From positions 1 to 64,000 of the forward strand of contig JAHFTW010000008.1 of NCBI GenBank assembly GCA_023269235.1: a DNA stretch of 64,000 bases, in the 5' to 3' direction. The position numbers were made by a program, and so were the translations under genes. This stretch comes from Thermoplasmata archaeon (GTDB taxonomy: Archaea > Thermoplasmatota > E2 > JACPAO01 > JAHFTW01). This document shows positions 16,755 to 58,095 of the stretch, piece after piece (positions within the stretch are counted from its first letter, which is position 1; each line of letters starts with the position of its first letter). Below the pieces are notes generated by a model, which saw nothing but the letters and a program-made list of their open reading frames with translations, did not search any database and had not been told where the DNA came from.

Positions 16755-18059
16755 ATGAGCCGCAGCCAGTACCAGTGCATCGTCGTCGGTGGCGGGTTCG
16801 CGGGGGCCAGCGCCGCCATCCGCCTCGCGCAGAAGGGCGTCAAGACCCTGCTCGTCGAGCGCGCCGACGAAGGGGGCGCCAAGAACCTCTCCGGCGGCAT
16901 CCTGTGGGGCAACGACCTCGCCGCCATCTTGCCCGACTGGAAGGCGACCCTCCCCGTCGAGCGCCCGGTCTCCAACAAGAAAGTCGGCTTCCTCAGCGAG
17001 AACGGCCCCGCCTTCGTCATTGACTTCCACGACCCCGCGCTCAAGACGCAGACCGTCGGCTACGCCGTCCTGCGCGCCAAGACCGACAAGTGGCTCCTGG
17101 AGCAGGCCAAGAAGGCCGGCGTCACCGTCGTCACCGGCGTCAACGTCGAGGGTCTCGCCAAGCAGAATGGGCGCGTCGTGGGCGTCCAGCAGTCCGGAGA
17201 GACCACGTACGCCGACGTCGTCATCGTCGCCGACGGCGCCAACTCCCGCCTCACCCTCCAGGGCGACTTGCGTCACGGGCACAAGAAGCTCGACATGGAC
17301 CACTACGCCCTCGGCGTCAAGGAGATCCTGAAGCTCCCCCGCGCGACCATCGAGGAGCGCTTCGGCACCGGCACCGACGGCGGCATGGCCGGCGAGTTCG
17401 TCCTCGGCCGCTGCGACGGCGTGCTGGCAGGCGGCTTCCTCTACACGAACCAAGACACGCTGTCGCTCGGCGTGGTCATCAACCTCCCCTCGATGAAGAA
17501 CCAAGGCGAGCTGACGACGCACGACGTCGTCGAACAGTTCCGCAACCACCCCTACATCCAGTCGCTCGTCAAGGGCGCCGAGCTCGTCGAGTACGGCGCG
17601 CACTTGGTCCCCGAGGGCGGCTACCAGGCGTTCAGCGAGCTGTGCGGCGATGGCGTCCTCGTCGTCGGCGACGCCGCCGGCTTCTGCTTCAGCAATGGCA
17701 TCGTCATTCAGGGCATGAACTACGCCGTACGCTCGGGCATCTGCGCCGCCGACGCCGTCGCCCACGCCGTCAAGGTCGGCGACTTCTCCGCCGTCACGCT
17801 CGCCCAGTACGAGCGCAACCTCGAGTCCGACGGCATCATGGACGACTTCCGGAACTTCAAGAACGTCAGCAAGTTCCTCTGGAACCCGCGCCTGTTCCAG
17901 AAGTACCCGGACTTCCTCGCCAACGTCTTCCGCCGCATGCTCAAGGCCGAGGGCCCCAAGAAAAAGATGCGCGCCCATCTCACCGAGGCCATGAAGGAGT
18001 CCGGCGTCTCCAAGGCAGACATCCTGCGCGACGGCCTCAACGGAGGCATGAACCTCTAA
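16755..18059 (+). CDS. fixC: FixC-like electron-transfer flavoprotein:quinone oxidoreductase
   Basis: This FAD-dependent dehydrogenase of 434 aa passes electrons from the Etf flavoprotein toward the quinone pool. The FAD-binding GGGFAGASAAIRLAQKG is at the N-terminus, and the second FAD motif GDGVLVVGDAAGFCFSNG is near residue 300. The C-terminal membrane-associated region (LAQYERNLESDGIMDDFRNF) matches FixC/ETF-QO and geranylgeranyl reductase relatives. The neighbouring fixX, overlapping by one base (TAATG), decides for FixC. Confidence 0.92.
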   Translation: MSRSQYQCIVVGGGFAGASAAIRLAQKGVKTLLVERADEGGAKNLSGGILWGNDLAAILPDWKATLPVERPVSNKKVGFLSENGPAFVIDFHDPALKTQTVGYAVLRAKTDKWLLEQAKKAGVTVVTGVNVEGLAKQNGRVVGVQQSGETTYADVVIVADGANSRLTLQGDLRHGHKKLDMDHYALGVKEILKLPRATIEERFGTGTDGGMAGEFVLGRCDGVLAGGFLYTNQDTLSLGVVINLPSMKNQGELTTHDVVEQFRNHPYIQSLVKGAELVEYGAHLVPEGGYQAFSELCGDGVLVVGDAAGFCFSNGIVIQGMNYAVRSGICAADAVAHAVKVGDFSAVTLAQYERNLESDGIMDDFRNFKNVSKFLWNPRLFQKYPDFLANVFRRMLKAEGPKKKMRAHLTEAMKESGVSKADILRDGLNGGMNL

Positions 18060-18445
18060 TGTCCGCCCACAGCGCCCCGGCCCAGGTCCCCAAGAACGTC
18101 GCCGGTGGAGGCCACGGCCACGTCGCCGCCCCCGACCGCGAAGCAAGTCCGCTCGCCAAGCTGCCCAAGCTCGACGTCAAGGCCCGCCTTGGCGCCGCCA
18201 AGTTCGTCACCGACGGCCACGACTTCGCCCACATCACCGTGGACCCCGACATCTGCGACACCTGCCCGCACGAGATGTGCATCAACACGTGCCCGGCGAA
18301 GTGCTTCGAGTTCGTCAACGGCCGCATGCAGTTCACGTACGAGGACTGCGTCGAGTGCGGCACGTGTGACATTGTGTGCACGCCCGGCTCCGTGAAATGG
18401 ACCAACCCGCGCGCCAGCTTCGGCGTCAACTACCGGTACGGCTAG
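18059..18445 (+). CDS. fixX: FixX-like ferredoxin
   Basis: This 128-aa ferredoxin-like protein is the Fe-S partner of FixC. Its C-terminal half is typical: CPAKCFEFVNG, then YEDCVECGTCDIVC, ending in FGVNYRYG. About 50 residues at the N-terminus (Gly/His/Pro-rich) are extra. The first cluster motif is degenerate, as is usual in FixX. The ATG shares its A with the fixC stop, so translation is probably coupled. No cofactor evidence beyond the cysteines. Confidence 0.9.
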   Translation: MSAHSAPAQVPKNVAGGGHGHVAAPDREASPLAKLPKLDVKARLGAAKFVTDGHDFAHITVDPDICDTCPHEMCINTCPAKCFEFVNGRMQFTYEDCVECGTCDIVCTPGSVKWTNPRASFGVNYRYG

Positions 18446-18458
18446 CCGCGGCGATGGC

Positions 18459-18465
18459 CTTAATC
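18459..18465 (+). promoter_or_regulatory. TATA box before the DUF4234-like gene
   Basis: CTTAATC is centred 26 nt before the GTG at 18488. The spacing fits a leaderless transcript, so this gene has its own promoter inside the fix/etf cluster. Confidence 0.6.
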
Positions 18466-18487
18466 GGCTGACGCGGTTGGAGCCTGC

Positions 18488-18898
18488 GTGGCTTCCACCG
18501 CCCCACTCTCGTCCTCCGCTCGACGCGTCTCCATCCTGAAGGTCTTCCTGCTCTCCATCATCACCTTCGGCATCTATTACCTGGTGACGGTGTACCGAAT
18601 CAGCCACGACCTGCGCCGCGACCGCGCGGGCGCCTCCGGGTCCTGGCAGGCGCTCTTCTGGTGCGGCTTCATCACGTTCGGCATCACCTGGATCGTCCTC
18701 TACGTCATGAACTTCCTCGAGTTGAAGGCCGCCCGCGAGGCCGTGGGCAAGACCGACCAGGTCCTCGGCATCCTCGCGCTCGTCCTCATCTTCGTGACCG
18801 GCATCGTGGGCCACATCCTCTGGGCCGTGTACTACAACGACTCCCTCGCCGCGAAGACCCCGGCGCCCGCCACGCCGCCGCGCGCCGCCGCCGTCTGA
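18488..18898 (+). CDS. Small membrane protein, DUF4234-like
   Basis: This 136-aa protein has three hydrophobic segments (VFLLSIITFGIYYLVTVY; ALFWCGFITFGITWIVLYV; LGILALVLIFVTGIVGHIL), the layout of DUF4234 proteins, function unknown. It starts with GTG and has its own TATA box. It sits between fixCX and etfBA, so a membrane-tethering role for the electron-transfer complex is possible, but this is only context. Confidence 0.75.
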   Translation: MASTAPLSSSARRVSILKVFLLSIITFGIYYLVTVYRISHDLRRDRAGASGSWQALFWCGFITFGITWIVLYVMNFLELKAAREAVGKTDQVLGILALVLIFVTGIVGHILWAVYYNDSLAAKTPAPATPPRAAAV

Positions 18899-18930
18899 GC
18901 CCGCGCGTGCGCGATGGGCGGTCGTCGCCC

Positions 18931-18938
18931 TTTTATGG
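18931..18938 (+). promoter_or_regulatory. TATA box before etfB
   Basis: TTTTATGG lies about 68 nt before the GTG/ATG of etfB. Transcription would start near 18958, giving a leader of about 40-50 nt, unlike the leaderless genes around it. Confidence 0.5.
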
Positions 18939-18998
18939 AAGCCCCAAGTCGCCGCCCCCAGGGCCACTCCTGTCGGACGAGCCGCAGGCAGGCCCACG

Positions 18999-19880
18999 GT
19001 GTCCGTCATGGTCCACGCCGCGCCCGCCAAGCCGACCGCCCCTTCGGGCCAGACCTACCTCCTCAAGGGCCAGAACCGCCCGCTCCACGTCGCCGTCTGC
19101 ATGAAGATGACGCCCGACGCGACCGACCTCACCATCGACCCCGTCAAGAAGACGCTCGACCGCACGAAGGTCAAGAACATCATCAACCCCCCGGACGAGA
19201 ACGCGTTTGAGTTGGCGCTCCAGTTCAAGGACGCCTGGGGCGCGCAGGTCAGCGTCGTCACGATGGGCCCGCCCTTCTTCGACATCATGCTGCGCGAGTG
19301 CGTTGCCCGCGGTGCCGACCGTGGCGTCCTCATCACCGACCGCGCCTTCGCCGGCGCCGACACCTGGCCCACGAGCATGACGCTCGCGGCCGGCATCAAG
19401 AAAATCTCGAAGATGTACGGCGACGTGGACATCATCCTGTTCGGCGAGGAGACCACGGACGCCTCGACGGGCCAGGTCGGACCCGGCGTGGCCGGCCAGC
19501 TCGACGTGGACCAGGCGACCTACGTCCACTCGCTTGAGTTCGACCCGACGACCGAGACCCTGCGCGCACTGCGCAGCATCGGCGGCGGCCACGAGGTCCT
19601 GCAACTGCCCCTCCCGGCGGCCGCGACCTGCGAGCTGAAGATCAACACGCCCCGCATCGCAAGCCTCAACGGCAAGCTGCGCGGCCTCTCCCAGCCCGTT
19701 GTGACGTGGAGCCTCGCGGACCTTAGCGACATCAAGGACCCGTCCTGGGTTGGCCTCAAGGGCTCCCCGACCATCGTCGGAAAGGTCGACATCTCCAGCG
19801 GCTTCGACCGCAACGGCCCCAAGCTGGCCGACGCCAAGACCGTCGTGGACGCCCTCTTCGCCAAAGGAGTCGTCGCCTAA
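18999..19880 (+). CDS. etfB: Electron-transfer flavoprotein beta subunit
   Basis: This is the FixA/EtfB subunit of the heterodimeric electron-transfer flavoprotein, 293 aa. Typical blocks are LHVAVCMKMTPDATD, NPPDENAFELALQFKD, DIILFGEETTDASTGQVGPGVA and SIGGGHEVLQLPLPA. The GTG at 18999 is used, with an ATG three codons later equally possible. It shares one base with etfA (TAATG), so the two are made together. The nucleotide bound (AMP in ordinary Etf, FAD in bifurcating Etf) cannot be decided here. Confidence 0.92.
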   Translation: MSVMVHAAPAKPTAPSGQTYLLKGQNRPLHVAVCMKMTPDATDLTIDPVKKTLDRTKVKNIINPPDENAFELALQFKDAWGAQVSVVTMGPPFFDIMLRECVARGADRGVLITDRAFAGADTWPTSMTLAAGIKKISKMYGDVDIILFGEETTDASTGQVGPGVAGQLDVDQATYVHSLEFDPTTETLRALRSIGGGHEVLQLPLPAAATCELKINTPRIASLNGKLRGLSQPVVTWSLADLSDIKDPSWVGLKGSPTIVGKVDISSGFDRNGPKLADAKTVVDALFAKGVVA

Positions 19881-21538
19881 TGCCCGTCATCACGAACCAG
19901 AAGTCCCGGTACGACGCCATCACGTTCCGCGCCTGCGAGCCGACGAAGAATTTTGCGGATTGGAAGGGAGTCTGGGTCATCGTGGAGCACCGCGAGGGCC
20001 AGCTGCGCGACGTCACGCGCGAACTGCTGGGCGCCGCGCGCCCCATGGCGGACAAGATGGGCCAGAAGGTCACCGCCGTCGTCCTCGGCCACCAGGTCGG
20101 CGACCTCGCCGAGCAGCTCATCGCGCAGGGCGCCGACGAGGTCATCGTCTGCGAGAACCCGGTCCTCAAGACCCCGCTGGCGCGCCCCAGCACCGAGGTC
20201 ATCAACAAGCTCATCGAGGCGAAGAAGCCCAACATCGTCCTCATCGGCGCGACCCACACGGGCCGCGACATCAGCAGCCGCGTCGCCGCGACGCTGGACG
20301 CCGGCATGACGGCCGACTGCACCGAGCTCGACGTGGACGTCATCAACGGCGAGCTGCTCGCGCGCCGCCCCGCCTTCGGCGGCAAGATGCTCGCCACGAT
20401 TCGCTGCGACCGCCACCGCCCGCAGATGGCCACGGCGCGCCCTGGCATCTTCAAGCCCCTCGAGGCCGACGCAAACCGCAAGGGCAAGGTCGAGACCGTC
20501 GACGTCACCTGGCTCAGCAAGAACACCTACGCCGCGCAGGTCATCGAGTACGTCCTCGAGACCTCGAAGGCTGACATCACGAAGGCCGAGGTCCTCGTCG
20601 CCGGCGGCGTCGGCATCGGCGGCCCTGAGGGCTTCGCGAAGCTCACCGAGCTCGCGGACGCGCTCGGTGGCCAGGTCGCCTGCTCCCGCCCCGTCGCGGA
20701 CAAAGGCTGGATGGACCGCGCGCGCCAGGTCGGCCAGACCGGCGTCTCCGTGCGCCCCAAGCTGTACATCGCCGTCGGCATCTCCGGCGCCATCCAGCAC
20801 ATCGAGGGCATGAAGGAGTCCGGCACCATCCTCGCCATCAACACCGACCCGAACGCCGCCATCTTCCACTACGCCGACATCGGCCTGGTGGGCGACTGGA
20901 AGGACCACGTCGACGCGCTCATCGCGGAGGCCAAGAAGCGCAACCTGGCGAAGGCGAAGTGGATGGTCCCCGTCAAGGACACCCTCGACGCCGACCGCCA
21001 GGCCGCCGCCGAGCGCGCCGCGAAGGCGTCCGGCAAGCCCGTCGTCCCCGTCGCTGCACCCGCGGCGCCGGCCTCGGCCCCGGCCGCTTCCGCACCGAAG
21101 CCGGCGGCCGCGTCAGCCACCGCCGTCGAGCCCACGAAGCCGGCGCCGGCAGCCCCTGCCGCGCCGAAGCCCGCCGTCCCACCTGCCGCTCCCGCCCCCC
21201 CTGCGGCCCCCGAGGCCGTTGGTGGGAAGTACACGGGCAACCCGAAGGACATCGGCGCCGTGAAGGCGTTCGCAAGCAAGCTGCCCGAGGCGAAGAAGGC
21301 CTGGGTCGTCGCCGCGGACTGCATTGTCTGCAACGGTTGCCAGGCTGCCTGCCCGACCGACGCCGCCATCGTCACCGACATGGCGCGCGTGGACCGCGAC
21401 CTCTGCGTCTCGGACGGAGCCTGCCTGGATGCGTGCCCGACGGGGGCCATCCGGCTCGGCGTCGAAGTGCAGTCCACGTCGGGCGGCTGGCCGAAGGGAA
21501 GCCGGCTGGCTGGCAAGTTCGGGACGCCCGAAGCCTAG
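19880..21538 (+). CDS. etfA: Etf alpha subunit fused to a C-terminal ferredoxin
   Basis: Residues 1-~370 are EtfA/FixB: the N-terminal alpha/beta domain (LIGATHTGRDISSRVAATL) and the FAD domain (VAGGVGIGGPEGF ... AVGISGAIQHIEGM ... TDPNAAIF). A long Ala/Pro-rich linker (~385-460) leads to a two-cluster ferredoxin domain (~480-535). The first motif, CIVCNGCQAACP, is complete; the second, CVSDGACLDACP, has Asp where the second Cys belongs. Ferredoxin domains fused to EtfA are usually N-terminal in the cases I know, so the C-terminal position is unusual. Together with FixCX it probably moves electrons between ferredoxin, the flavoprotein and quinone. Confidence 0.93.
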   Translation: MPVITNQKSRYDAITFRACEPTKNFADWKGVWVIVEHREGQLRDVTRELLGAARPMADKMGQKVTAVVLGHQVGDLAEQLIAQGADEVIVCENPVLKTPLARPSTEVINKLIEAKKPNIVLIGATHTGRDISSRVAATLDAGMTADCTELDVDVINGELLARRPAFGGKMLATIRCDRHRPQMATARPGIFKPLEADANRKGKVETVDVTWLSKNTYAAQVIEYVLETSKADITKAEVLVAGGVGIGGPEGFAKLTELADALGGQVACSRPVADKGWMDRARQVGQTGVSVRPKLYIAVGISGAIQHIEGMKESGTILAINTDPNAAIFHYADIGLVGDWKDHVDALIAEAKKRNLAKAKWMVPVKDTLDADRQAAAERAAKASGKPVVPVAAPAAPASAPAASAPKPAAASATAVEPTKPAPAAPAAPKPAVPPAAPAPPAAPEAVGGKYTGNPKDIGAVKAFASKLPEAKKAWVVAADCIVCNGCQAACPTDAAIVTDMARVDRDLCVSDGACLDACPTGAIRLGVEVQSTSGGWPKGSRLAGKFGTPEA

Positions 21539-43173: not shown

Positions 43174-44414
43174 GCGTCGTCCGTATCCGCTAGCGGCAGT
43201 GGCGTCCGCTCGACCTCGAGGCGCGTCGCGGTCGGGTGGACCTCGGAGAGCCACGCGGTGACGCCGAGCTCCTCCAGGACGCCCTCCTCGCCGGCGAGTT
43301 CTTCAGCGACCCAGGGCGCGGTCTCGACGCGGCCGTTCTCGACGAAGACCCATTCGGCGGGCACCTCGAAATCGCCGCGCAGCGCCTCCGCAACCTCGCC
43401 GGGGTCGCCGCCCGGGAGCGGCTGCAGGACGCCGAAGACGAGCGTGCCCTCCTCGGTCTGCTCCTCGAAAGGGCGCTGGACGTTGGTGGCGCGGCGCTTG
43501 AAGCGCTGCATGAGCTGGATGGCGTCCTTGAACGGGCTGCTGCAGAAATGGACCGCGAACGCAGAGGAGCGACGCGAGGTACCAGGCTCCCCAGCCACCC
43601 CGCCGCGCGCCTTCCAGCCGGCGAGCACCGCGAGGCCGGTCTCGCGGCTGCCGGCGACGGACTGCGTCTCATCGTTGGCGGGCTGGTAGCCGAAGCGCTT
43701 GAGGTTCGCGATGTTGGGGTCGCTGAACTCCAGCTCGTTCATGTTGAGGCCGTTGGCGCCCGCCTTCTGAAGGTAGTCCGCCATCGCAAGGATGGCCTTC
43801 TCCTTGCCCGGGATGCAGGGAATCTCGATGGTCGTCGTGAGGCCGACGCGGACGGCCTCCGCGATGGCGGCGTGGTGCCACGACTCGGGCATGCGCTCGT
43901 AGTCGCGCACGTCGGGGTGGAACCGCATCTCGTCGAGGCCGGCCGCCTTGAGGATAGGGATCCACTTCAGGTCGAAAGCGCAGCTCGTGTAGAGGTGAAT
44001 GTGGAAGTCGGGACCGTAGCGCGCCTTGAGCGCCTTGCAGACCTGCTCGACGCGCTCGGGCTTGACCATCGGGTCGCCGCCCGTGATGCCGGCGCCCTTC
44101 GCGCTGATGAGGTCGCACTCGTCGAAGAGGTCCTTCCAGTGCTCGCCCACCGGCTGGCCGTCGCGGGGGGGGTGGATGGCGCGCTCGTTGGCGAACATGA
44201 CGTCGCGGTACATCTTCTCCCGGCTGACCGGGCAGTAGAAGCACTCCTTGTCGCACATGCCGGTGACGAAGAGGACGAGCTTGGCGCCCTCGCGGCACTG
44301 GATGCACCCCATCGGCAGGACGCCGAGGTGGCGGCTGCCGGCGTACTTCTCGCCGAGGCCATGCTCGGCCAGCGGCTTCTGCGCCAGGTCCGGGCCGCCC
44401 AGGGGATGCGCCAC
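43170..44414 (-). CDS. Radical SAM protein (COG2108-like)
   Basis: This 414-aa radical SAM enzyme has the cluster motif GMCDKECFYCPVS (CxxxCxxC) at about residue 55, preceded by an extra pair MGCIQC, as in the COG2108 group related to pyruvate formate-lyase activase. GAGITGGDPMVKPERV is the SAM-binding region. The C-terminal ~150 residues are not conserved in a way I recognise. The reaction is unknown. GTG start at 44414. Confidence 0.87.
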   Translation of the reverse strand: MAHPLGGPDLAQKPLAEHGLGEKYAGSRHLGVLPMGCIQCREGAKLVLFVTGMCDKECFYCPVSREKMYRDVMFANERAIHPPRDGQPVGEHWKDLFDECDLISAKGAGITGGDPMVKPERVEQVCKALKARYGPDFHIHLYTSCAFDLKWIPILKAAGLDEMRFHPDVRDYERMPESWHHAAIAEAVRVGLTTTIEIPCIPGKEKAILAMADYLQKAGANGLNMNELEFSDPNIANLKRFGYQPANDETQSVAGSRETGLAVLAGWKARGGVAGEPGTSRRSSAFAVHFCSSPFKDAIQLMQRFKRRATNVQRPFEEQTEEGTLVFGVLQPLPGGDPGEVAEALRGDFEVPAEWVFVENGRVETAPWVAEELAGEEGVLEELGVTAWLSEVHPTATRLEVERTPLPLADTDDA

Positions 44415-44452
44415 GGCGCTTCGTGTCCGACCGCCCTACAAGAGGCTTGCTC

Positions 44453-44689
44453 TCAACGGACCCACTCGACGCCGGCGGGGATGGGCTCGCCCAGCATTTC
44501 GGCGATTGCGGGCATGGACGGGGCGACGACCCAGTCGGCCACGGTGGCGGTGTGCGGGGCGGCCTCGCGGCGACCGTGCAGGGGGCAGGAGTAGTGCTCC
44601 AGCATGAGGCCGTGGTGGATGGAGACGGTGCGGGCGACCTCGCGTCCGCACACGGGGCAAGAGCCGACTGTCATGGTCATACGGGCCAT
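44453..44689 (-). CDS. Small zinc-ribbon protein
   Basis: This 78-aa protein has GSCPVCGREVARTV near the N-terminus and a further Cys (HYSCPLHGR), suggesting one zinc site. The family is unknown. The track ORF starts 19 codons earlier; I chose the ATG at 44689 (MARMTMTVGSCPVCG), with MTMTV two or three codons later also possible. Confidence 0.65.
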   Translation of the reverse strand: MARMTMTVGSCPVCGREVARTVSIHHGLMLEHYSCPLHGRREAAPHTATVADWVVAPSMPAIAEMLGEPIPAGVEWVR

Positions 44690-44759
44690 GGGTTCCCCTA
44701 GGGCACGGTGGGTATTCCACCGCTTGGATGGGTAGGGTGAAAGCACCCTGCGAGGACGC

Positions 44760-45110
44760 CTACCGCCAGGTGGTGTAGCGATCCATCGCGTTGAGGAGGC
44801 GGGCCTGCGTTTGCGCGTCCACGACCTTCTCCTTGACCTTGTCGTTGAGGAAGACGCGCGCCTCGACGACGGAGTCGCGCGATCCCTTCGCCCACATCGT
44901 CTGGATGAGCGCCGACTGGACCTCGGGGGCCACGCCGGAGTTCTTCAGGATGTCCTCGCACTCGTAGCGGAAGAAGTTCGCCTTGCTCTGGTCGAGCATC
45001 TTCTCGCGCTGCCGCGACTCGCGGTTGTTGCGGTTGGTCTGGTTGTGCTTCGGCGGCCGAGGGGCTCCGACGATTCCAGGGAGCTTCGGCGGTCGAAGAC
45101 GGCGTGCCAC
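44760..45110 (-). CDS. Unrecognised basic/helical protein
   Basis: This 116-aa protein has a basic Pro-rich N-terminus (RRLRPPKLPGIVGAPRPPKH) and a helical remainder (MLDQSKANFFRYECEDILKN, LIQTMWAKGSRDSVVEARVFLNDKV). No family is recognised. The GTG start is exactly 25 nt after a strong TATA box (TTTATACC). It is the last gene before the accessory island; base use looks like the core genes. Confidence 0.75.
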   Translation of the reverse strand: MARRLRPPKLPGIVGAPRPPKHNQTNRNNRESRQREKMLDQSKANFFRYECEDILKNSGVAPEVQSALIQTMWAKGSRDSVVEARVFLNDKVKEKVVDAQTQARLLNAMDRYTTWR

Positions 45111-45130
45111 GACTCTGGGTTATCCGTCGC

Positions 45131-45138
45131 GGTATAAA
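45131..45138 (-). promoter_or_regulatory. TATA box at the island's left edge
   Basis: On the minus strand TTTATACC is 25 nt before the GTG at 45110. A palindrome CGGTTAACCG (45166-45175) lies about 30 bp upstream of it. Confidence 0.65.
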
Positions 45139-45240
45139 GCCGGTGCCTAAGGGCTGACAAGTCCTCGGTTAACCGCGTGGCAGGCTTCTGGAGTGCGATT
45201 TGGTCGCTGCCGCATGGCTCGAACGTCTCGTCGCGTGGCC

Positions 45241-45288
45241 AATTTGGCAGGCCCGGCCCCCGCCGGGGCGGCCAAACGCGGCGAAATT
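45241..45288. repeat. Strong hairpin next to transposase-like gene
   Basis: TTTGGC (45243-45248) pairs with GCCAAA (45271-45276), and inside CCCGGC-CCCC-GCCGGG forms a compact stem; AATTT and AAATT flank the whole. It lies in the 237-base gap downstream of the transposase-like gene and may mark an end of the mobile element. Confidence 0.5.
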
Positions 45289-45347
45289 AGCGAGCGTGGC
45301 CTGGCTTGCGCTAGGGAATCTCGTAGCTTGGCCCGCCCGGGGGCGTC

Positions 45348-46604
45348 TTAGTCTGGCGGCGGTGGAGCTGGATCCATGGCTGCCATGGCATCCACGACAT
45401 CGCGGATTGCTCGTTTGACGGTCCAGCTCTTGGGCGCCCGTTCCAACCGCCCGCTCTGCAACGCTTCAAGGAGCGTTTCGAGGCGGGCCAACTGGCCTCC
45501 CGTGATTACCGCCACCTTGGTCAGGTAGCCGAGCAGGAAGGCTTGGATGGTCTTTGGGCGAAGGCTCTCGCGGTCGTTCGTGAAGTGCTGAAAGAAGACC
45601 TCGATGCGGTGACGGCGGAGATACAAGTCTGCAAGCGTCTCCGCGCCGAGGTCGAAGAGGTCGCTCGCGAGCGCCATGCTCGTATCCGGATTCCAGTTCC
45701 ATTTGGGCTGCTTGCGCGTGCCGCCGTTAGGGGTGATGCCCACCTTGAGGGTCAACTGGACCGTGGTCGGGTCACCTTGGAACCGGCCCTTGAAGTTCTT
45801 CACCTTGTACGCGAACCTTTCCCGCGATTTGGGCATACGATCCGCGTAAACCGGCAGCGACTCCAGGGCGATCTGTTCGCACAATTCGGAGATACGGAGC
45901 TTGCGACCATCTTCCAATACGAACCAGCGGTTGCTCTCTTCGCCTGTCCTGACGCGGTGCATGAATCGCGCCCGGAACTTGATTTGTTTCCCGCGGAATC
46001 CAGAAGAGTCGTACGCGCGATCCCCAATGGAGACCGCGGGAACGATGTGCATACGGCTGTAGGCGGCCTCCGCCCATTCCCGATGAAGACGGACTTGTTG
46101 TTCGAGGGCGCCCGTCAAGTGGACCATGAATGGCAACATGATCCAGTGTCCCTTGCAACGCCATGCCAAGATGCCGTTCAGCATCTTGTGGCAGAAGGGG
46201 GCGCTCTTGTTGGAGGCGCTGGCCTTGAGCGCAAACGGTTGGCGACTGACCTCAACAATGATTACCTTGTTCTTCTTCTGGGTCAGATAGTATTCCGCCT
46301 CGTTGATGTCCAGAATGGAGAGGACCTCGTGATCGTCAGGCGGGAAGGCTGCCAGGCGTTCCACGACGCGCTCCTGGAGGCGTTCATTGAAGGCCTTGGT
46401 TGCCGCCGCGATATCCACGTCTTGCAAGCGCGTGCTGAACGTGCTGGACTGAATGCCGCCGCGCTCGTTTTCCCTAGAGAAGATGCTCTCGTTGCGAATC
46501 ACGCACGGAACCAACTTGGCAACTGTGTCCTCCGGTTCAACGACGCCTGCGCGACGAAACACGAACTCCAGATCATCGCGTGTTTCCCGAGCGTAGCGTG
46601 TCAT
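45348..46604 (-). CDS. DDE transposase-like protein
   Basis: This 418-aa protein looks like a diverged IS4-type DDE transposase. Candidate catalytic residues are Asp in LSILDINEAEYYLT, Asp in VSIGDRAYDSSGF, and Glu in LYLRRHRIEVFFQHFTND, a region like the YREK signature. The N-terminal ~100 residues are unassigned. Its ATG (46604) overlaps the stop of the upstream gene (ATGA); the longer track ORF would overlap further. No clear terminal inverted repeats were found, so mobility is unproven. Confidence 0.65.
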   Translation of the reverse strand: MTRYARETRDDLEFVFRRAGVVEPEDTVAKLVPCVIRNESIFSRENERGGIQSSTFSTRLQDVDIAAATKAFNERLQERVVERLAAFPPDDHEVLSILDINEAEYYLTQKKNKVIIVEVSRQPFALKASASNKSAPFCHKMLNGILAWRCKGHWIMLPFMVHLTGALEQQVRLHREWAEAAYSRMHIVPAVSIGDRAYDSSGFRGKQIKFRARFMHRVRTGEESNRWFVLEDGRKLRISELCEQIALESLPVYADRMPKSRERFAYKVKNFKGRFQGDPTTVQLTLKVGITPNGGTRKQPKWNWNPDTSMALASDLFDLGAETLADLYLRRHRIEVFFQHFTNDRESLRPKTIQAFLLGYLTKVAVITGGQLARLETLLEALQSGRLERAPKSWTVKRAIRDVVDAMAAMDPAPPPPD

Positions 46605-47173
46605 GCGGATTCCCCCACGAACGTCAGTGGCGGAACAGCCCGGTAGATTGCCCAAGTGCTGTTGTTGCGTTTGGGATTGACTTCCTGGACCTGCCAGCGC
46701 TCTGTCTCAATCGCTTCGATGGCTCCTTTCCAACGCCGATACGACAGGACGTAGAGGGCACTTCCGCCCGGCTTGCGACTGGTGCCCGTTTCCCGCTTTA
46801 CGATGAACAACGCGTGGATCTCCTCCAGTGGCAACTTGAGCAACGAAGCAACCATTTGGGCCATCGTGAAGTTGCCATTGTTGTAGTTCGTCTTGACCCA
46901 GCGAATCATCGCTTCAGCCGAGGGCGCCGTCGGTTTCCCTGGCACCTTGGGCGGCTCCTCGACGACGTCTTCGGATTGGGTTTTCTCGCCGATTGGGAAC
47001 TCGTCGCGGCGACCCTTGTCCGCAGTCATGGCCACGAGCTCCTTGATCTGCTCGGCGGAAATGCGACCGCCGGCGAGCTCCTTCACGAACCTGGCGAGGG
47101 CACCGTACGTGCCCAAGACATTCATGGGCCCGCCTGGGACGAAGACGATGCGGCATTCGTCGCTCTCAGCCAT
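46601..47173 (-). CDS. Partner protein of the transposase-like gene
   Basis: This 190-aa protein is not recognised. It has an N-terminal part (ECRIVFVPGGPMNVLGTYGALARFVKELAGG), an acidic/Pro linker (~75-100), and a C-terminal part that could be a winged helix (AMIRWVKTNYNNGNFTMAQM ... YVLSYRRWKGAIEAIETERW). The ATG at 47173 avoids the unlikely extension in the track. Its stop overlaps the start of the transposase-like gene, so the two are translated together. Confidence 0.6.
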   Translation of the reverse strand: MAESDECRIVFVPGGPMNVLGTYGALARFVKELAGGRISAEQIKELVAMTADKGRRDEFPIGEKTQSEDVVEEPPKVPGKPTAPSAEAMIRWVKTNYNNGNFTMAQMVASLLKLPLEEIHALFIVKRETGTSRKPGGSALYVLSYRRWKGAIEAIETERWQVQEVNPKRNNSTWAIYRAVPPLTFVGESA

Positions 47174-47509
47174 GAACCGGCCCCCGCGTACTTTGCTTGA
47201 GAATCGACCTGGGGATGGGCCGGCTTCGTAGCTGTGGTTCTGCCCGCGCTTGGAGCGTGCCGTCTCGGCGTCCTCCACGTGTTGCGTAGCAGGCAGCGGT
47301 TGCACCGGATTCACCGGATACAAACGCAAAAGATAAGGTGAAAACCGGCGGCCATGAAATGGGGCGGCAGGATTCGAGGACAGTGGGGGTGAAAGGGGGA
47401 GTGGATTGCCTAGCCGGAAGGCTCGCGGGCAGCCGTGCGCTGCAAGTCGGGGAAGCGGTTGCCGCGGAAGCCAGGCTTGGTTGGCGTTCCGTAGGACACC
47501 GCGGACCGA
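47174..47509. other. Gap without recognisable gene
   Basis: This 336-base stretch contains a short tandem (ACCGGATTCACCGGATAC, near 47308) and no convincing ORF on either strand. Plus-strand ORFs here have no conserved features. It may hold the right end of the transposase element. Confidence 0.4.
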
Positions 47510-47728
47510 TCATTTGTTCAACGCTCGCCAGACCGCCCAGCCGACCTTGAGCCAGGGGTTTGGCTGCACCCCGACAATGGCGTCTGCTAGCGCCAGCGAT
47601 TCGCGCCCCATGCCGATTGGCTGGCCCCCGCTTTTCCTCGTCAGGGAGGTCCGTTTGGGACCCGACCCTGCACGAACGATTTTGGGACCTGGAGTAAGCT
47701 TCTTAACTGAACGATTCGGTGTAACCAT
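47510..47728 (-). CDS. Small basic protein, unknown
   Basis: This 72-aa ORF encodes a basic protein (VKKLTPGPKIVRAGSGPKRTS ... VGVQPNPWLKVGWAVWRALNK). I see no family and only a weak TATA-like GGATAG upstream, so it is an uncertain gene. It was preferred over the overlapping plus-strand ORF because that one has random-looking composition. Confidence 0.4.
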   Translation of the reverse strand: MVTPNRSVKKLTPGPKIVRAGSGPKRTSLTRKSGGQPIGMGRESLALADAIVGVQPNPWLKVGWAVWRALNK

Positions 47729-47792
47729 TGGCCTTCACTATCCTTGACCTCCGGGTTGAGGGGAAGAGGGGAAGATTCCGCGTCCTGCGGTT

Positions 47793-47826
47793 CGAAGCCG
47801 ACTAGATGTGAAGTCGGACGGCTTCG
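47793..47826 (+). terminator. Hairpin followed by T-rich tract
   Basis: CGAAGCCG (47793-47800) pairs with CGGCTTCG (47819-47826), with CCGACT/AGTCGG as an alternative inner pairing, and TTTCTTT follows. It could end plus-strand transcription, though no clear plus-strand gene precedes it. Confidence 0.4.
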
Positions 47827-47871
47827 TTTCTTTGGGTTCCCTTAGGGACCCCCATAGCGAGTTTTAGACGG

Positions 47872-48312
47872 TCACCTCTCCTCCCTTTTCTCCTTCGTTT
47901 TTTGGAACGTGTATGAGACGTAGCGGCCTCGTTTTGCGCCTGGTGAGCTCCAGGTGCCACCCTTTTCTTTGGCAATCTCTTCGAGGGCCTCTTTTCGTGA
48001 ACGATCAAACGTTACGCGGAGGCTCTTCTGGTCGCTCGCAATAGGCCGGCCCAACACCCATTCTTGCAACTGAGCCGGGGTGTGCTTCATCGGCTTTCCG
48101 CGGGTCGTGAGCTCCTTGATGATCCGTGACGTGTGCTCGTGCCTGAACAGTTTTTGGTCCTGCGCGAGAGCGGAGCGAACGCTGGTCCGGCGACTGCCCT
48201 CGGCTACCGCGCCCAGTTCGCCTTGCAACGCGCCCACTTGCTTTGCGCTCAACTCAAACGACAACACGAATCCGCCTCCCGGCACCGGAGTGGCCTTCAC
48301 GTGAAGCTTCAT
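47872..48312 (-). CDS. Unrecognised basic protein
   Basis: This is a 146-aa protein with no family I know. The N-terminal ~70 residues (MKLHVKATPVPGGGFVLSFEL ... LRHEHTSRIIKELTTR-like region) and a basic C-terminus (ARKEALEEIAKEKGG-type, ending KTKEKREER) suggest a nucleic-acid-binding protein. A TATA-like ATTAAG near 48335 is about 25 nt before the ATG. It is likely a real accessory gene. Confidence 0.55.
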   Translation of the reverse strand: MKLHVKATPVPGGGFVLSFELSAKQVGALQGELGAVAEGSRRTSVRSALAQDQKLFRHEHTSRIIKELTTRGKPMKHTPAQLQEWVLGRPIASDQKSLRVTFDRSRKEALEEIAKEKGGTWSSPGAKRGRYVSYTFQKTKEKREER

Positions 48313-48787
48313 GGCCGACCCGACGGGTCAATTCAACTTAATCTCTTCGCACCATGACCTGGCAACGACGAACCAGATTCAATGAAAGCATCTCGCCAAG
48401 CACAAGTTGTATTGAATTAGGAATTGGGCCCGCCTGAAAAGCCGCAAAACGTGGCAAATCTCCGGCTCATTCTCGATTTCAAATCCTCTTTTTCATGAAA
48501 CCATCTTGGTCAAACTTGTGAAGAAAACCAAACGATTTCTGTCCCCATGGCTGGCGTCCTTGAGGCCGGGCGTAGGACTGGTTGTTAAGCATCTCGGAGA
48601 CCGCGGTTAGCCGTTTGAGGGACCGGGATCACAGGAGGTCGCATGCCGCGAGCGCGCCGGCCAGGGCCGTCGTGATGGGAATGAAGTCTGAGATCTCCAT
48701 GTCGATGAGAGCGATTCTGGGCGCTAAAAATGAATTGGCCGTGAACGTAGGTTGCTGGTTGCAGCTACGGTGGGGAAAGGGAACGAC
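48313..48787. other. AT-richer gap with a possible gene remnant
   Basis: This 475-base gap holds no intact gene. On the minus strand a TATA-like ATTTTTAG is about 27 nt before an ATG (48700) opening MEISDFIPITTALAGALAAC, which then meets a stop at 48629. It reads like the start of a membrane protein that has been lost. The plus-strand 69-aa ORF is not convincing. Confidence 0.35.
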
Positions 48788-50155
48788 CTAGGCCAAGTGA
48801 CCGTACCAGTTGAGCGCTGTGGACACGTCGAAAGATGAGGTGCCCCATTCGGGAGCTTGACCTGGGAACGCCGATGGCGGATTGGGGCCGTCACATCTCC
48901 AGATTCGGTACTCTTGCCCCACGCAGCCGATTGCAAAGCACCAACCGCTCGCCGTTCGCCTCCACGCATACCAAGCTTGACCGTCGGTCCGGATCACGAG
49001 CACTATTCCGGGATCACCGACGACGCCTGCGACCTGAAAATCGAAGCCGGGTCGAGTTAGAAGGTGTTTGTATCGACCTGCGGGCGCATGATCGTACGAT
49101 CCATGCATGCACGATGCCAGCCAATCCAACGTTTTGCAGGTCGCTTTGAATTCGCGTTTGTCGCGGCGCCTTCCTTCCTCGTCTACGGCGTTTGATCCAG
49201 CGAAGGCAATGAGGTCGCGTTGCGCCTGTAGAATCGCAGCTTCCGCCGCATCGAGCTGTGCCCGCCATTCCAGAGTAGCCGTCCGAGCGCCAGTGAACGA
49301 AGTCGCTCGTGCAATGTGGAAGGTGCCGCTCTTGGCTGCAGCAATGTACTTCAGTCGCCAACCAAGGACAGAGGCGAATCCGGCGCGCACTGCAAGAGAC
49401 GGCCGGCGGTCGTTATTCGCAAAACCAAGGCGGGTGAATGCTGATTCGTACCCCGCGATTACGGCGAAACCTGCAACAAAGGGCAGCGCGGCAAGAGTCA
49501 AACCAATCTGCAGTAGTGTCGCTTGCACGGGGGTGACGAGATCATAGTGGAACCCCTTGGATTGGAAAACCAGGGCAGTGTGGACAACGATGAGAATGAA
49601 AATGCCACGGAGCAGTTTTGGCGAGAGTACCCTCCACTCGGCTTGCTCTTTACCTTTCGTGATAATGGGCGCCACCACGATGACCAATCCAAAGAGCTGG
49701 AGAACCAGTTCCCACCAATACGAAAGCGGTTCGAGGTTTACCGCGAATTCAATAATGGCCGTAAAACCTGCGAGCTGACGAACAGAGTTCCAAAGATATC
49801 CTTCCTTGACTTCATTCAGATTCACCATCAGGATGAATCCACTGGTCAAGCACCACTGCAGAGAGGCTCTGGAATCGCTCAGGTGCCACAATCCAAGACG
49901 TTCGGCACCGAGGAGCACGATGCCTACCCAGACGAAAAGCGTCAGCATGGGAACGTACACTTTCCACTGCAGAAATGCCTTCAGGACCCCGCCAAGGCCA
50001 CGCAAGCTCTGACGCCCGCCTGAAGTTACGAGGAGGAAACAGGCCGCCGCAGCAATCAAAGTAAGTACAGCAAGTTCGCGACTGTTGAAATCAAAACCGT
50101 AAGTGGACCTCAGTTCTTCCATCCACGCGGTTACTCTGGCGAGCCAATCCTGCAC
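48788..50155 (-). CDS. Large membrane protein of unknown function
   Basis: This 455-aa protein has about seven hydrophobic segments in the first ~260 residues (VLTLIAAAACFLLVTSG; VPMLTLFVWVGIVLLG; LVLQLFGLVIVVAPII; IFILIVVHTALVF; LTLAALPFVAGFAVIAGY), then a soluble domain of ~190 residues (TATLEWRAQLDAAEAAILQA ... GQAWYAWRRTASGWCFAIG). I do not recognise either part. GTG start. It is last in a four-gene minus-strand block. Confidence 0.7.
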   Translation of the reverse strand: MQDWLARVTAWMEELRSTYGFDFNSRELAVLTLIAAAACFLLVTSGGRQSLRGLGGVLKAFLQWKVYVPMLTLFVWVGIVLLGAERLGLWHLSDSRASLQWCLTSGFILMVNLNEVKEGYLWNSVRQLAGFTAIIEFAVNLEPLSYWWELVLQLFGLVIVVAPIITKGKEQAEWRVLSPKLLRGIFILIVVHTALVFQSKGFHYDLVTPVQATLLQIGLTLAALPFVAGFAVIAGYESAFTRLGFANNDRRPSLAVRAGFASVLGWRLKYIAAAKSGTFHIARATSFTGARTATLEWRAQLDAAEAAILQAQRDLIAFAGSNAVDEEGRRRDKREFKATCKTLDWLASCMHGSYDHAPAGRYKHLLTRPGFDFQVAGVVGDPGIVLVIRTDGQAWYAWRRTASGWCFAIGCVGQEYRIWRCDGPNPPSAFPGQAPEWGTSSFDVSTALNWYGHLA

Positions 50156-50233
50156 ACTTCAGAATGCACGCGAGAACCAATTAAAGTGTCTAAGCGAACA
50201 GCTTCTTGCTCCCGGGCGAAAGATTGCCGGCGA

Positions 50234-50773
50234 CTAGGTACTAGGGATAGAAATGCCATGCGCATTCAGCATGTCGATGGTACCGCGAATCGTCGCCAAG
50301 GAAACCGGAACTTGCCCGGCTAGGGCCATGAGCGTAGCCGCGGCAAGGATCGGGTGCTCGCGATCCAATTCGTTTCCAACTTCCAATTGAGTTCGGATGA
50401 GGACCGCGATTCCGCTGTACGTGTGGCGGAGGCTTGATGCGAGCAAGGGCGACTTCAGGATACGAACATCGTCGCTTGACCACGCATCTCCAAACGCTTC
50501 GAGTTTCACATCACCCGGGACGTACGCATCAAGTACAGGGATTCCCTGCGGATTGCGCTGAATTGTTGAGCGAGCTACATCTGGAATACCGCTAAGGAAA
50601 TCATGGTTGTTCATTAGTTCCAGCAGAACAAAACCTAGGAGCGTGCGTCGCCGGCGTCGCCGACGGATGACATCGATTGCCAATGCGACCAAGGCCGCCC
50701 CGATGGCCAACTCCAGTGCTTCGACACCGTGATCCAGAACGGCATCAATGAACGAAGATTGCTCCACCACCAA
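50234..50773 (-). CDS. Membrane-anchored protein, unknown
   Basis: This 179-aa protein has an N-terminal membrane helix (LELAIGAALVALAIDVI) followed by a run of arginines (RRRRRRR), so the rest should be cytoplasmic. The soluble part (LLELMNNHDFLSGIPDVA ... LEVGNELDREHPILAAATLMAL) has no known family. GTG start. It lies 62 nt after the winged-helix gene and 78 nt before the large membrane-protein gene on the same strand. Confidence 0.65.
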   Translation of the reverse strand: MVVEQSSFIDAVLDHGVEALELAIGAALVALAIDVIRRRRRRRTLLGFVLLELMNNHDFLSGIPDVARSTIQRNPQGIPVLDAYVPGDVKLEAFGDAWSSDDVRILKSPLLASSLRHTYSGIAVLIRTQLEVGNELDREHPILAAATLMALAGQVPVSLATIRGTIDMLNAHGISIPST

Positions 50774-50835
50774 GCGAGTTCAGACCCCACCAAAAAGCAT
50801 TCGCCCACTGCCGAACAAGAGCGAGGCAGCTCGGG

Positions 50836-51123
50836 TCATGGGATATTTGGACCACTGCTTGGCGGGAGGGAGAATTCCGGGTTAGCATTCAGTACTTGCT
50901 GCCAGAGGTGTTTCCCTGCGCCCGTCAAGTGGTACAGCCGAGTGTCGAACCTTACATTCGCTTCCTCGGCGAGCCTGTGCAGGGTGCTCCTGATGGTTTC
51001 GGTCCGCATGCCCGTGTAGGATTCCAACATCTCCAGAGACATTGGCCTGGCAGCCAGAGCGCGCAGGAGCACATGGCGCGCCTGAATTGTTCGAAGGCGA
51101 ACCCAACTGGGGGAGCTTGGCAT
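50836..51123 (-). CDS. Winged-helix DNA-binding protein
   Basis: This 95-aa protein fits a winged-helix fold: RHVLLRALAARPMSLEML, TGMRTETIRSTLHRLAEEANV (recognition helix) and YHLTGAGKHLWQQVL (wing). It probably regulates this gene block. The ATG at 51123 lies four bases after the stop of the SHOCT gene; the track start would overlap that gene. Confidence 0.7.
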   Translation of the reverse strand: MPSSPSWVRLRTIQARHVLLRALAARPMSLEMLESYTGMRTETIRSTLHRLAEEANVRFDTRLYHLTGAGKHLWQQVLNANPEFSLPPSSGPNIP

Positions 51124-51127
51124 GATG

Positions 51128-51874
51128 TTAGCTCTGGTGCCTTTTCCGGATTTCAAGGTAGGTTTGTTCGCTGATTTCGCCGCGAGCAAGACGATGCTCC
51201 AGCATCGTTACAAGCTCATTTTGCGACGGTGCGGCCGGAGTCGAAGGCGGAGGTGGCAGTGGTGTCTTTGCAGCCATGACGATTGCAGCATCCAGGGCGC
51301 TCACGGGGGCTTTGGGCGCCAGGCGACTTGCGACTCCAAGGCATGCGATGATACTGGGCGCGTAAGCCATGAGCGCAAGGGGGCCAATTGAATTCTGGTA
51401 CGCTTGCTGGCTAAGCTTGCCCGCAAGAAGGTCATTGAACGAGGACACGGACCCCCATGCGGCAAGGAGCGCAGACCCGACGCCGATGCCGAAGACTACG
51501 CGGGGCCAGCCTTTCGATGCGACGAAGAAGAACATGAGGACGACGAAGGTAAGGAGGACGTCGCTTGCGCCATCCAAGCCGATGGCGAACCGGTACTGAT
51601 CTGCGGTCACGTCGGGTAGGGTCACCAACTTCAGGGCAGCCTTGCTACAGATGAAGGCCAGGACGAGCAGGGCGAATCCAATTTTGATGCGGAACGCATG
51701 CTTCGGCCCATACGTTGCCACGTCCTTGCGGAGCTGGACGAAGCAGTAGAGCAGGACCGCGCTACCGGCAAGGCTGAGGAAGAGGTCGAGTGGGGGCTGC
51801 ACGTAGGCGCTGACGATCAGAAGGGCTAGAGCGGCTGCTGCGGCAAGTGCTGCTCGGCGTGTGGGGGTGGACAT
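51128..51874 (-). CDS. Membrane protein with C-terminal SHOCT-like domain
   Basis: This 248-aa protein has five or six hydrophobic helices (for example LAAAAALALLIVSAYVQ, LTFVVLMFFFVASKGW, IGPLALMAYAPSIIACLGVA) and a Pro-rich linker. The C-terminal ~30 residues (NELVTMLEHRLARGEISEQTYLEIRKRHQ) match a SHOCT (short C-terminal) domain. Function unknown. It is first in the minus-strand block and diverges from the RHH gene. Confidence 0.75.
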   Translation of the reverse strand: MSTPTRRAALAAAAALALLIVSAYVQPPLDLFLSLAGSAVLLYCFVQLRKDVATYGPKHAFRIKIGFALLVLAFICSKAALKLVTLPDVTADQYRFAIGLDGASDVLLTFVVLMFFFVASKGWPRVVFGIGVGSALLAAWGSVSSFNDLLAGKLSQQAYQNSIGPLALMAYAPSIIACLGVASRLAPKAPVSALDAAIVMAAKTPLPPPPSTPAAPSQNELVTMLEHRLARGEISEQTYLEIRKRHQS

Positions 51875-51922
51875 GATGCGCCTGAACCCGGAGTTTACGC
51901 CGGATTATTTCCCCCATTTGAG

Positions 51923-51937
51923 GGTTAATATCTAACC
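51923..51937. promoter_or_regulatory. Palindromic operator over divergent promoter
   Basis: GGTTA-ATATC-TAACC is a perfect 5-bp inverted repeat. It overlaps the TATA-like TTAATATC about 30 nt before the RHH start and lies between divergent genes, where an RHH protein would be expected to bind for self-control. Confidence 0.55.
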
Positions 51938-51960
51938 GTTTCCGCCCGGTCTTACCCGAC

Positions 51961-52131
51961 ATGGGCCGCCCAAAAATCCCTGCCGCGCGCCGCAAAATGA
52001 AGGTCACGATCACGCCCTCTCGCGAGGTGCTTGAATTCCTCGACGACCGCATTGGGCTCGGCAAGCTCTACAGCAACCGAACCCACGCCTTCGAGCAGGC
52101 AGTCGCCTGCCTCATGAAGCACGAGAAGTGA
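51961..52131 (+). CDS. Ribbon-helix-helix regulator
   Basis: This 56-aa protein is too short for the ORF track. KMKVTITPSREVLEFLDDRI fits the beta strand and first helix of a CopG-like RHH fold, and LYSNRTHAFEQAVACLMKHE fits the second helix. The basic N-terminus (MGRPKIPAARRK) is typical. It shares a GTGA overlap with the next gene, so the two are coupled like a regulator and its effector. The GGTTA...TAACC operator lies in its promoter. Confidence 0.8.
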   Translation: MGRPKIPAARRKMKVTITPSREVLEFLDDRIGLGKLYSNRTHAFEQAVACLMKHEK

Positions 52132-53255
52132 AAACATCAAGGACCCGGGCGCGCTACACGTTCTTCGTGTCTGCGCGGTGGTCAGCTGCTTGGCGAGCGC
52201 GGCGAAGCGCCCAGAACCCACGTGGGGGCCGGACTTCGACGCATGCCCCACGCCCCATTCTGGATGGGGTCATTCTTACAACGCTTGCCACCGCGGTCCT
52301 CTATCTGGTTGGCAGCTTGTACTTGGAGGGCTACTACGTACGGCTCGGATTGCCTTCGAACGAAACCCAGTTCCCCTTCGCCGACATTATTCGAGCTAGC
52401 ATGAACCCGCTGGTGACCATCGGCGGACTGACCTTGCTTTTGGCAGTCATCTGCTTGTCGTTGAACCGAGCTGAGAGACAATCCTATTGGCAACCTTTCG
52501 CACCGCTTTCCACCGCCCAGGCCCTTGCGATTGTCCTAAGTGTCTGGGCAGCCAAACTCGTCATCGATTTCACCCAGGGAACCGATTCTGTCCCATGGAT
52601 TGCCTGGCCACGACGAGACGTCATCTTCTTCGTTGCCGCAGTCCTGATTCTTGTCTACTACGCAAAGGAATCTGTCCGGCGTTCAAGCGCCCATAAGCCT
52701 CGGCGTCTCCGTGGGGTTACCTCTGCTGAATTGACGTTTCTCATCTATTGTTGGATTTTCGTGCTATTCACCTGGATGACGAGGAATTTTGAGTGGCCGC
52801 TTAAACTCAGCGACACGTTGTTGCTTTCCGCAGCGTCCATGGGCATCGCAGTTCTCGCGTTCTACGACTGGAAACACCCAGGGCCCGAGACCAAGATGGA
52901 CCGCTGGTTTAGGAAGCCAGAGCGCGCCCCAGAAACCAGACTCACGGGCGGAGAAACAAAAGGATCCAATCTGTTCCTTGGCGTCATTGCAATCCTCGCC
53001 TTGTTGCTGGGTTCAGGGCTCTCCGGCGGAATCGCCGCCGGCGGGCTCCTATCCGGATGCCACGCTGTTGAAACCGTCACATTTGTCCCTCAACCACATG
53101 AACTGCTAGCCAATCATACGTACTGGCTCATTCTCCATCAAGGGACGTCTTACTACGTTCGAGACTCCAACGCCACAGACGGGTTCCGAATCGTGCAACC
53201 CGAACTCGGTTCTGTGGTTCACGTCTTCCGACAGGCAAAAAACCAGCCTTGCTGA
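52128..53255 (+). CDS. Multi-pass membrane protein coupled to the RHH gene
   Basis: This 375-aa protein has about seven hydrophobic segments (VILTTLATAVLYLVGSLYL; LVTIGGLTLLLAVICLSL; VIFFVAAVLILVYYA; LTFLIYCWIFVLFTW; LFLGVIAILALLLGSGLSG) and a C-terminal tail (HTYWLILHQGTSYYVRDSN) probably outside the membrane or in a small folded domain. No family is recognised. Its GTG start overlaps the RHH stop. Base composition is AT-richer than the core. Confidence 0.65.
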   Translation: MKTSRTRARYTFFVSARWSAAWRARRSAQNPRGGRTSTHAPRPILDGVILTTLATAVLYLVGSLYLEGYYVRLGLPSNETQFPFADIIRASMNPLVTIGGLTLLLAVICLSLNRAERQSYWQPFAPLSTAQALAIVLSVWAAKLVIDFTQGTDSVPWIAWPRRDVIFFVAAVLILVYYAKESVRRSSAHKPRRLRGVTSAELTFLIYCWIFVLFTWMTRNFEWPLKLSDTLLLSAASMGIAVLAFYDWKHPGPETKMDRWFRKPERAPETRLTGGETKGSNLFLGVIAILALLLGSGLSGGIAAGGLLSGCHAVETVTFVPQPHELLANHTYWLILHQGTSYYVRDSNATDGFRIVQPELGSVVHVFRQAKNQPC

Positions 53256-53324
53256 CTTTTTTCAGCGGAACGCGCAAGCGGCGCGCCATCTCTGAGCCCT
53301 CGCATACCATCTTATCGGCATCTG

Positions 53325-53333
53325 CTTTTATGC
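53325..53333 (+). promoter_or_regulatory. TATA box before the DUF2971 gene
   Basis: CTTTTATGC is centred about 24 nt before the GTG at 53352, giving this gene its own leaderless promoter. Confidence 0.6.
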
Positions 53334-53351
53334 GGCAACCCTGCCCAGGCC

Positions 53352-54335: not shown

Positions 54336-54431
54336 CCCACGCTGATGCCTAAAATCGCTGCTCCCCTGAATCGATGGAAGGACAAGCGATTCAGTTTGCG
54401 GCGAGTTTGCCGAATCTAAAGTGGGGAGGCG

Positions 54432-55850: not shown

Positions 55851-56003
55851 AAGAGCTCAGAGGGGCAGGGGTTCTTGAGCCGCGCGCCTCACCTGGGACG
55901 TAAATGTTTTTTCAGCTCTTCTCCTGACCCGCTTCTGCTCTTGCACTTTCGGGCCGCAACCGGGGCCAAAAGGCTTCAACCGGCCCGGCGCGTTCGCTGA
56001 ACC

Positions 56004-56870: not shown

Positions 56871-56884
56871 GAGGCCACTGCCAC

Positions 56885-57004
56885 TTACGCGGCGCCCCGG
56901 CCATCCTCTGGAGAGAACAATGCCGGACCTCGCGGCGTCGTGGCGAGCCCGCATTTCGAGGCGGCTTTCTGGCTCGCCTGGGTGGTAACAAAGAACCCAG
57001 TCAT
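56885..57004 (-). CDS. Possible 39-aa protein behind tandem palindromes
   Basis: A minus-strand frame encodes MTGFFVTTQASQKAASKCGL and ends PRGPALFSPEDGRGAA. Upstream on the same strand are a TATA-like GTTTACATA (57017-57025) and two GGTTAACC palindromes. The promoter layout is the main support; the protein has no family. Confidence 0.3.
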   Translation of the reverse strand: MTGFFVTTQASQKAASKCGLATTPRGPALFSPEDGRGAA

Positions 57005-57035
57005 TTCCGGCTCCGCCCTATGTAAACCTCCTAGG

Positions 57036-57054
57036 GGTTAACCGGTGGTTAACC
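57036..57054. promoter_or_regulatory. Tandem GGTTAACC palindromes
   Basis: Two perfect 8-bp palindromes GGTTAACC (57036-57043 and 57047-57054) are spaced 11 bp centre to centre, one helical turn. A third copy lies at 45167-45174 and a split version at 51923-51937, all at the island's edges or regulator. Confidence 0.55.
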
Positions 57055-57119
57055 AACCTTCCCAACCCTGTCGGCTGGGAAAACCGAGAAGTCGTCAGGG
57101 CTACAGCGTGAACAGCAGG

Positions 57120-58085: not shown

Positions 58086-58095
58086 GCCTTTGGAA

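Follow-up and report, generated by a model that had tools for sequence, protein, structure and literature searches.

The window, meaning the whole 64,000-nucleotide stretch of contig JAHFTW010000008.1 of a Thermoplasmatota archaeon analysed here, carries a Fix/Etf gene cluster at 16755-21538. Its five frames are all intact and lie on the plus strand, and starts and stops overlap at fixC/fixX and at etfB/etfA:

16755-18059, plus strand: FixC, 434 aa, FAD-dependent ETF:quinone oxidoreductase-like subunit (PRK10015/PRK10157 FixC family, PF21162, 7koe_C)
18059-18445, plus strand: FixX, 128 aa, two-[4Fe-4S] ferredoxin-like subunit (7koe_D, E=4.9e-17, residues 47-128; PF05187)
18488-18898, plus strand: small DUF4234 membrane protein, between fixX and etfB (PF14018, E=7e-10)
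18999-19880, plus strand: EtfB (FixA), 293 aa (PF01012; 6fah_B and 7koe_A at about 1e-50, the latter E=1e-49)
19880-21538, plus strand: EtfA (FixB), 552 aa, whole frame (PF01012 and PF00766, then Fer4 at residues 474-526)

FixC matches PRK10157 (E=1e-103) and PRK10015 (E=1e-107), both below their cut-offs, as well as 7koe_C (E=1e-58). It also contains the quinone-binding domain PF21162 (ETFQO_UQ-bd), and on this match is predicted to associate with the membrane and to reduce quinone. The Fix/EtfABCX complex itself is known: FixC, FixX, EtfB and EtfA match all four chains of Thermotoga maritima EtfABCX (7KOE), which likewise comes from a gene cluster with FixC and FixX. An earlier note on this DNA had read the locus as a complete module of fixC, fixX, a small membrane protein, etfB and etfA. 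The five frames are there, but the DUF4234 gene is probably an insertion outside the conserved module because in a sister MAG etfB follows directly after fixX and the DUF4234 gene is absent at that place (L007/L111); its product was set aside as a fifth subunit on the same ground. Elsewhere in the window, region 44000-60000 has a G+C content of 57-62% (versus 67-71%) and a weak GC3 bias, and is possibly mobile or foreign; a Pfam search with two of its ORFs (45348-46655 and 48788-50155) gave no match.

What is new, in the two archaeal phyla sampled, is that the EtfA of this complex has a ferredoxin at its C-terminus. The EtfA frame is organized as follows:

19880-20947, plus strand: ETF core, residues 1-356 (PF01012 at 31-210, PF00766 at 232-312; 7koe_B E=6e-79, 6fah_A E=3e-94)
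20948-21028, plus strand: post-core segment, residues 357-383 (W.VPV.DTLDADRQAAAERA.KA), conserved in the sister MAG (alignment with L007)
21029-21223, plus strand: Ala/Pro linker, residues 384-448, 69% A+P
21224-21538, plus strand: C-terminal ferredoxin module, residues 449-552 (PF00037, E=1.8e-9; 74% identity to G000:C5:16114-16398 over 95 aa)
21320-21355, plus strand: cluster motif I, CIVCNGCQAACP, with C481/C484/C487/C491 (read from sequence)
21404-21439, plus strand: cluster motif II, CVSDGACLDACP, with Asp512 at the second Cys position (read from sequence)

The ferredoxin after a long Ala/Pro linker that the earlier note reported is thus present in one open frame, with a Fer4 match and the A/P-rich stretch at 384-448. 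The linker is about 65 residues long, and about 125 residues separate the end of the ETF core from the first cluster Cys; GC3 is 0.97 in the core, 0.80 in the linker and 0.90 in the ferredoxin. Could the ferredoxin be a separate, internally started protein? This was set aside provisionally: there is one in-frame GTG (residue 461), with no convincing ribosome-binding site by eye. An AlphaFold model of full EtfA (three sequences) reached a mean pLDDT of only 49, and neither a claim nor a fold search was based on it. The first of the two CxxCxxCxxxCP motifs is complete, and the second has Asp512 in place of its second Cys. Since this Asp is common to all three copies of the module that we found (the EtfA copy and two on FAD oxidases, described below), a sequencing error is improbable. 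Ferredoxins of archaea and of Pyrococcus are known to have the CxxDxxCxxxCP form, which can hold a [3Fe-4S] or an Asp-ligated [4Fe-4S] cluster; to judge by this motif, the second cluster may be labile or of higher potential.

To see how unusual this arrangement is, we searched for EtfA across 390 Thermoplasmatota genomes and 398 from the phylum to which a Nitrososphaeraceae MAG belongs (Thermoproteota), and read through 104 distinct frames (the best matches and most of those with long open frames). A ferredoxin is C-terminal in one of the 104, that of the window, and N-terminal in 18; the other 85 have neither. The C-terminal fusion thus occurs nowhere else in the two phyla sampled; within them it is not common, which would have counted against the earlier note. 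In a second pass over 102 EtfA frames, FixC and FixX were nearby in 46, none of which has a ferredoxin domain. No fixC match lies beside any of the 18 N-terminal-ferredoxin EtfAs. Many loci in this pass have only 1.5 kb of flank, so that FixC can be missed in some. The ferredoxin fusions described in the literature consulted are N-terminal (PMC9232219, PMC5861303), as the earlier note stated; our literature search for a C-terminal one found none, which is weak evidence, subscription papers being outside its scope.

In an EtfA tree, the window sequence and its sister-MAG homolog fall in a 22-row clade of FixCX-linked sequences (UFBoot 92 / aLRT 80), and the N-terminal-ferredoxin EtfAs lie apart, with CarE and Clostridioides difficile EtfA. 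From the survey counts and this placement, the C-terminal domain was most simply gained once, within the Fix-type lineage, in the family of the host. That family is represented by two genomes in the sample, and the order by four. In the sister MAG (PL25a_bin.104, G149) the start of the A/P linker is seen; as the contig ends inside the linker, the presence of the same fusion there is only likely.

The module has a twin. A copy 74% identical over 95 aa (G000:C5:16114-16398) forms the C-terminal part of a 730-aa GlcD-type protein with FAD_binding_4 and FAD-oxidase_C domains that is unrelated to EtfA (G000:C5:16114-18303, minus strand; L064:11112-13304). The gene sits elsewhere in the genome, beside dnaJ/dnaK, and the sister MAG has the same FAD oxidase with the module (L009). 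The finding of one ferredoxin module on both EtfA and an unrelated FAD oxidase, in this genome and the sister MAG, is also new. Over a 76-residue module core, the EtfA and FAD-oxidase copies share 63-65 identical residues and the FAD-oxidase copies of the two genera 67. Identity among copies is therefore 83-88%, against 60% for the FAD-oxidase bodies and 69% for the EtfA cores between genera, so the module is under strong constraint and more conserved than either host protein. Modules on both proteins end in a common tail, [QE][SA]TSxGWPxGSRLxGKFG. That two unrelated proteins carry so highly conserved a module suggests a surface turned towards the same partner on both. In the Thermoplasmatota sample, no further long frame carries the module at E<=1e-10, and weaker matches fall in short frames, as is usual for ferredoxins that stand alone. 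The C5 protein, with its EtfA-like ferredoxin module at the end, resembles the GlcD/YdiJ-type FAD oxidases that have C-terminal Fe-S domains; these have no ETF domains, however, and the other Thermoplasmatota homologs, in frames of about 490-1240 aa, are without the module. The top solved relative of the FAD oxidase is LctD of Ldh-EtfAB (E=1.4e-10), level with glycolate oxidase and DprE1, and no bifurcating flavin domain is recognizable in its sequence. A separate 76-aa two-cluster ferredoxin (L067:7111-7341, G000:C10), whose gene adjoins that of a geranylgeranyl-reductase-like FAD protein, is possibly the soluble ferredoxin of the organism.

Is the ETF of the bifurcating type? Roles for the residues beside the bifurcating FAD come from work on T. 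maritima EtfABCX (PMC10734219, where the names are exchanged, EtfA being the beta and EtfB the alpha subunit). In the alignments, EtfB R55, P257 and V260 are the equivalents of T. maritima R38, P239 and V242, and EtfA R163, in RPAFGG, is that of R140, which is essential for bifurcation (PMC10734219). In EtfB the RXGV motif reads RTKV, with the Arg kept and the G replaced by K. With all four tested positions conserved as in 7KOE, the flavin site is of the bifurcating group-2 type and not of the non-bifurcating type that would have counted against the earlier note. We infer that the complex bifurcates, and predict NADH-driven ferredoxin reduction. The same genome has two other ETF pairs, which lack the flavin-site motifs where aligned (both subunits of the C9 pair and the beta subunit of the C3 pair) and provide an internal contrast. 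Of the three pairs in this 93% complete assembly, the one in the window is thus the sole ETF of the bifurcating type. The others would serve other jobs, one in a beta-oxidation cluster and one near a membrane Fe-S protein. In the C9 pair (L066:9062-13696, G000:C9), EtfB-EtfA is followed by a small intervening protein and then by a 738-aa membrane protein that has Fe-S and Cys-rich motifs and, read from sequence, resembles ETF:menaquinone oxidoreductases. The third, divergent pair (L065:9365-14232, G000:C3) lies among genes read as acyl-CoA dehydrogenase, enoyl-CoA hydratase and 3-hydroxyacyl-CoA dehydrogenase. As RPx[F/G]GG is not matched exactly in 24 of the 46 FixCX-linked EtfAs from the two phyla, some of these proteins may not bifurcate.

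Three solved systems bear on what the tail might do. In T. maritima EtfABCX the two FixX clusters lie on the high-potential branch, and in the published model the bifurcating FAD gives the low-potential electron directly to a soluble ferredoxin (PMC10734219); unlike the window EtfA, the T. maritima alpha chain (338 residues, as aligned) has no room for a ferredoxin domain. In the caffeyl-CoA reductase-Etf complex CarCDE (6FAH), CarE is an EtfA-type subunit with a two-cluster ferredoxin domain and is the best single PDB match of the window EtfA (E=3e-94). CarCDE differs, however, in having its ferredoxin at the N-terminus, a soluble acyl-CoA dehydrogenase-type partner and no FixC or FixX, and in belonging to a separate part of the EtfA tree. 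In Ldh-EtfAB (LctBCD, 7QH2), another system of flavin-based bifurcation/confurcation, the EtfA ferredoxin domain is an essential adaptor for external ferredoxin: its deletion abolishes bifurcation and confurcation while the isolated active sites still work (PMC9232219). That domain too is N-terminal, holds a single cluster, and serves a lactate dehydrogenase instead of FixCX. The window EtfA does not have the CarE/LctC arrangement of a ferredoxin ahead of the ETF core; its domain occupies residues 449-552. Nor need the tail be essential, since the CarCDE ferredoxin domain is dispensable in vitro and bifurcation persists without it (PMC9232219). The C-terminal segment of the alpha subunit is a mobile shuttle domain that can lie far from the bifurcating FAD (PMC9232219, PMC10765413), so a ferredoxin attached there would need a long flexible linker to reach the FAD, and the linker found fits.

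By analogy with these systems, the most likely role of the tail is that of a tethered relay or adaptor, comparable to the N-terminal domains of CarE and LctC but built independently on a Fix-type complex. More specifically, we give about even chances to a membrane-associated, NADH-dependent bifurcating complex of the Fix type in which the EtfA tail serves the low-potential branch and meets a partner shared with the FAD oxidase. FixX and FixC would form the high-potential branch to quinone. Where EtfA and EtfB meet, the tail ferredoxin would accept an electron from the bifurcating FAD, or dock beside this FAD, and would then pass the electron to an external partner, probably the one also used by the GlcD-type FAD oxidase with the same module. 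The direction of electron flow and the flavin that feeds the tail are predictions. The earlier note had suggested a direct hand-over of low-potential electrons from the flavoprotein to the ferredoxin that it carries, and such intramolecular transfer is plausible. Because an FAD oxidase with no recognizable bifurcating flavin domain carries the same module, and because one cluster has an Asp ligand position, a role as adaptor to a shared partner is at least as well supported. Several points weigh against the preferred reading: this oxidase is not obviously a low-potential enzyme, motif II has its Asp, the RXGV motif of EtfB has K for G, and T. maritima is modelled with a soluble ferredoxin as direct acceptor. 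A bolder form of the idea, which we think rather doubtful, is a swinging arm: the ferredoxin, on an E2-like Ala/Pro linker at the shuttle-domain end, would carry the low-potential electron to its acceptor, the module on the FAD oxidase would plug a second dehydrogenase into the same acceptor, and the ferredoxin would be an interchangeable covalent connector.

The complex might instead run mainly in reverse, by confurcation, the tail feeding ferredoxin electrons into EtfAB so that NADH is made with quinol electrons. The genome has a haem-copper oxidase gene (COX1) and three genes of the 2-oxoacid:ferredoxin oxidoreductase type (POR_N), so reduced ferredoxin may be plentiful and reverse operation possible; Fix homologs are moreover common in aerobes (PMC6085437), and Ldh-EtfAB works as a confurcating enzyme (PMC9232219). 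Direction is not readable from sequence, however, and we regard mainly reverse running as an unlikely alternative. It is less probable that the tail serves chiefly as a plug, docking EtfABCX and the FAD oxidase onto one common partner or onto one another, with electron transfer through its clusters secondary or part of a high-potential path. The near-identity of the module on both proteins, C-terminal tail included, would fit a plug, as would the LctD relationship of the FAD oxidase, weak though it is. The clusters nevertheless seem to be functional, since no copy has lost any of the Cys/Asp ligand positions; the FAD oxidase is encoded away from the Fix cluster, and the analysis brought no common partner to light.

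A neutral, lineage-specific domain gain of little functional consequence could account for the full fusion being seen in one genome, with the sister contig ending inside the linker, yet the module is strongly conserved across copies, the frame is intact with GC3 bias and the sister MAG retains the post-core segment, all of which make neutrality improbable. More improbable still is an artefact of assembly or frame that joins etfA to a separate ferredoxin gene. The fusion does come from a single assembly, and the linker is of low complexity and coincides with the break in the sister contig; against this, the frame is open throughout with high GC3 in core, linker and ferredoxin alike, and both the post-core segment and the beginning of the A/P linker recur in the sister MAG. 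A chimera or collapsed repeat involving the C5 copy is ruled out by the 36% divergence at third codon positions between the two modules.

Returning to the tethered relay or adaptor, its interest is that the exit of the low-potential electron from Fix-type bifurcating complexes has been inferred rather than observed, as the binding of soluble ferredoxin is transient. With its acceptor tethered, a natural variant could trap this step for structural and kinetic work. The C-terminal position, in another part of the EtfA tree than the N-terminal domains, would mean that EtfA acquired a ferredoxin adaptor on at least two occasions. Finally, the occurrence of the module on a second flavoenzyme suggests that ferredoxin may act as an exchangeable connector, and gives a handle for finding the common partner.
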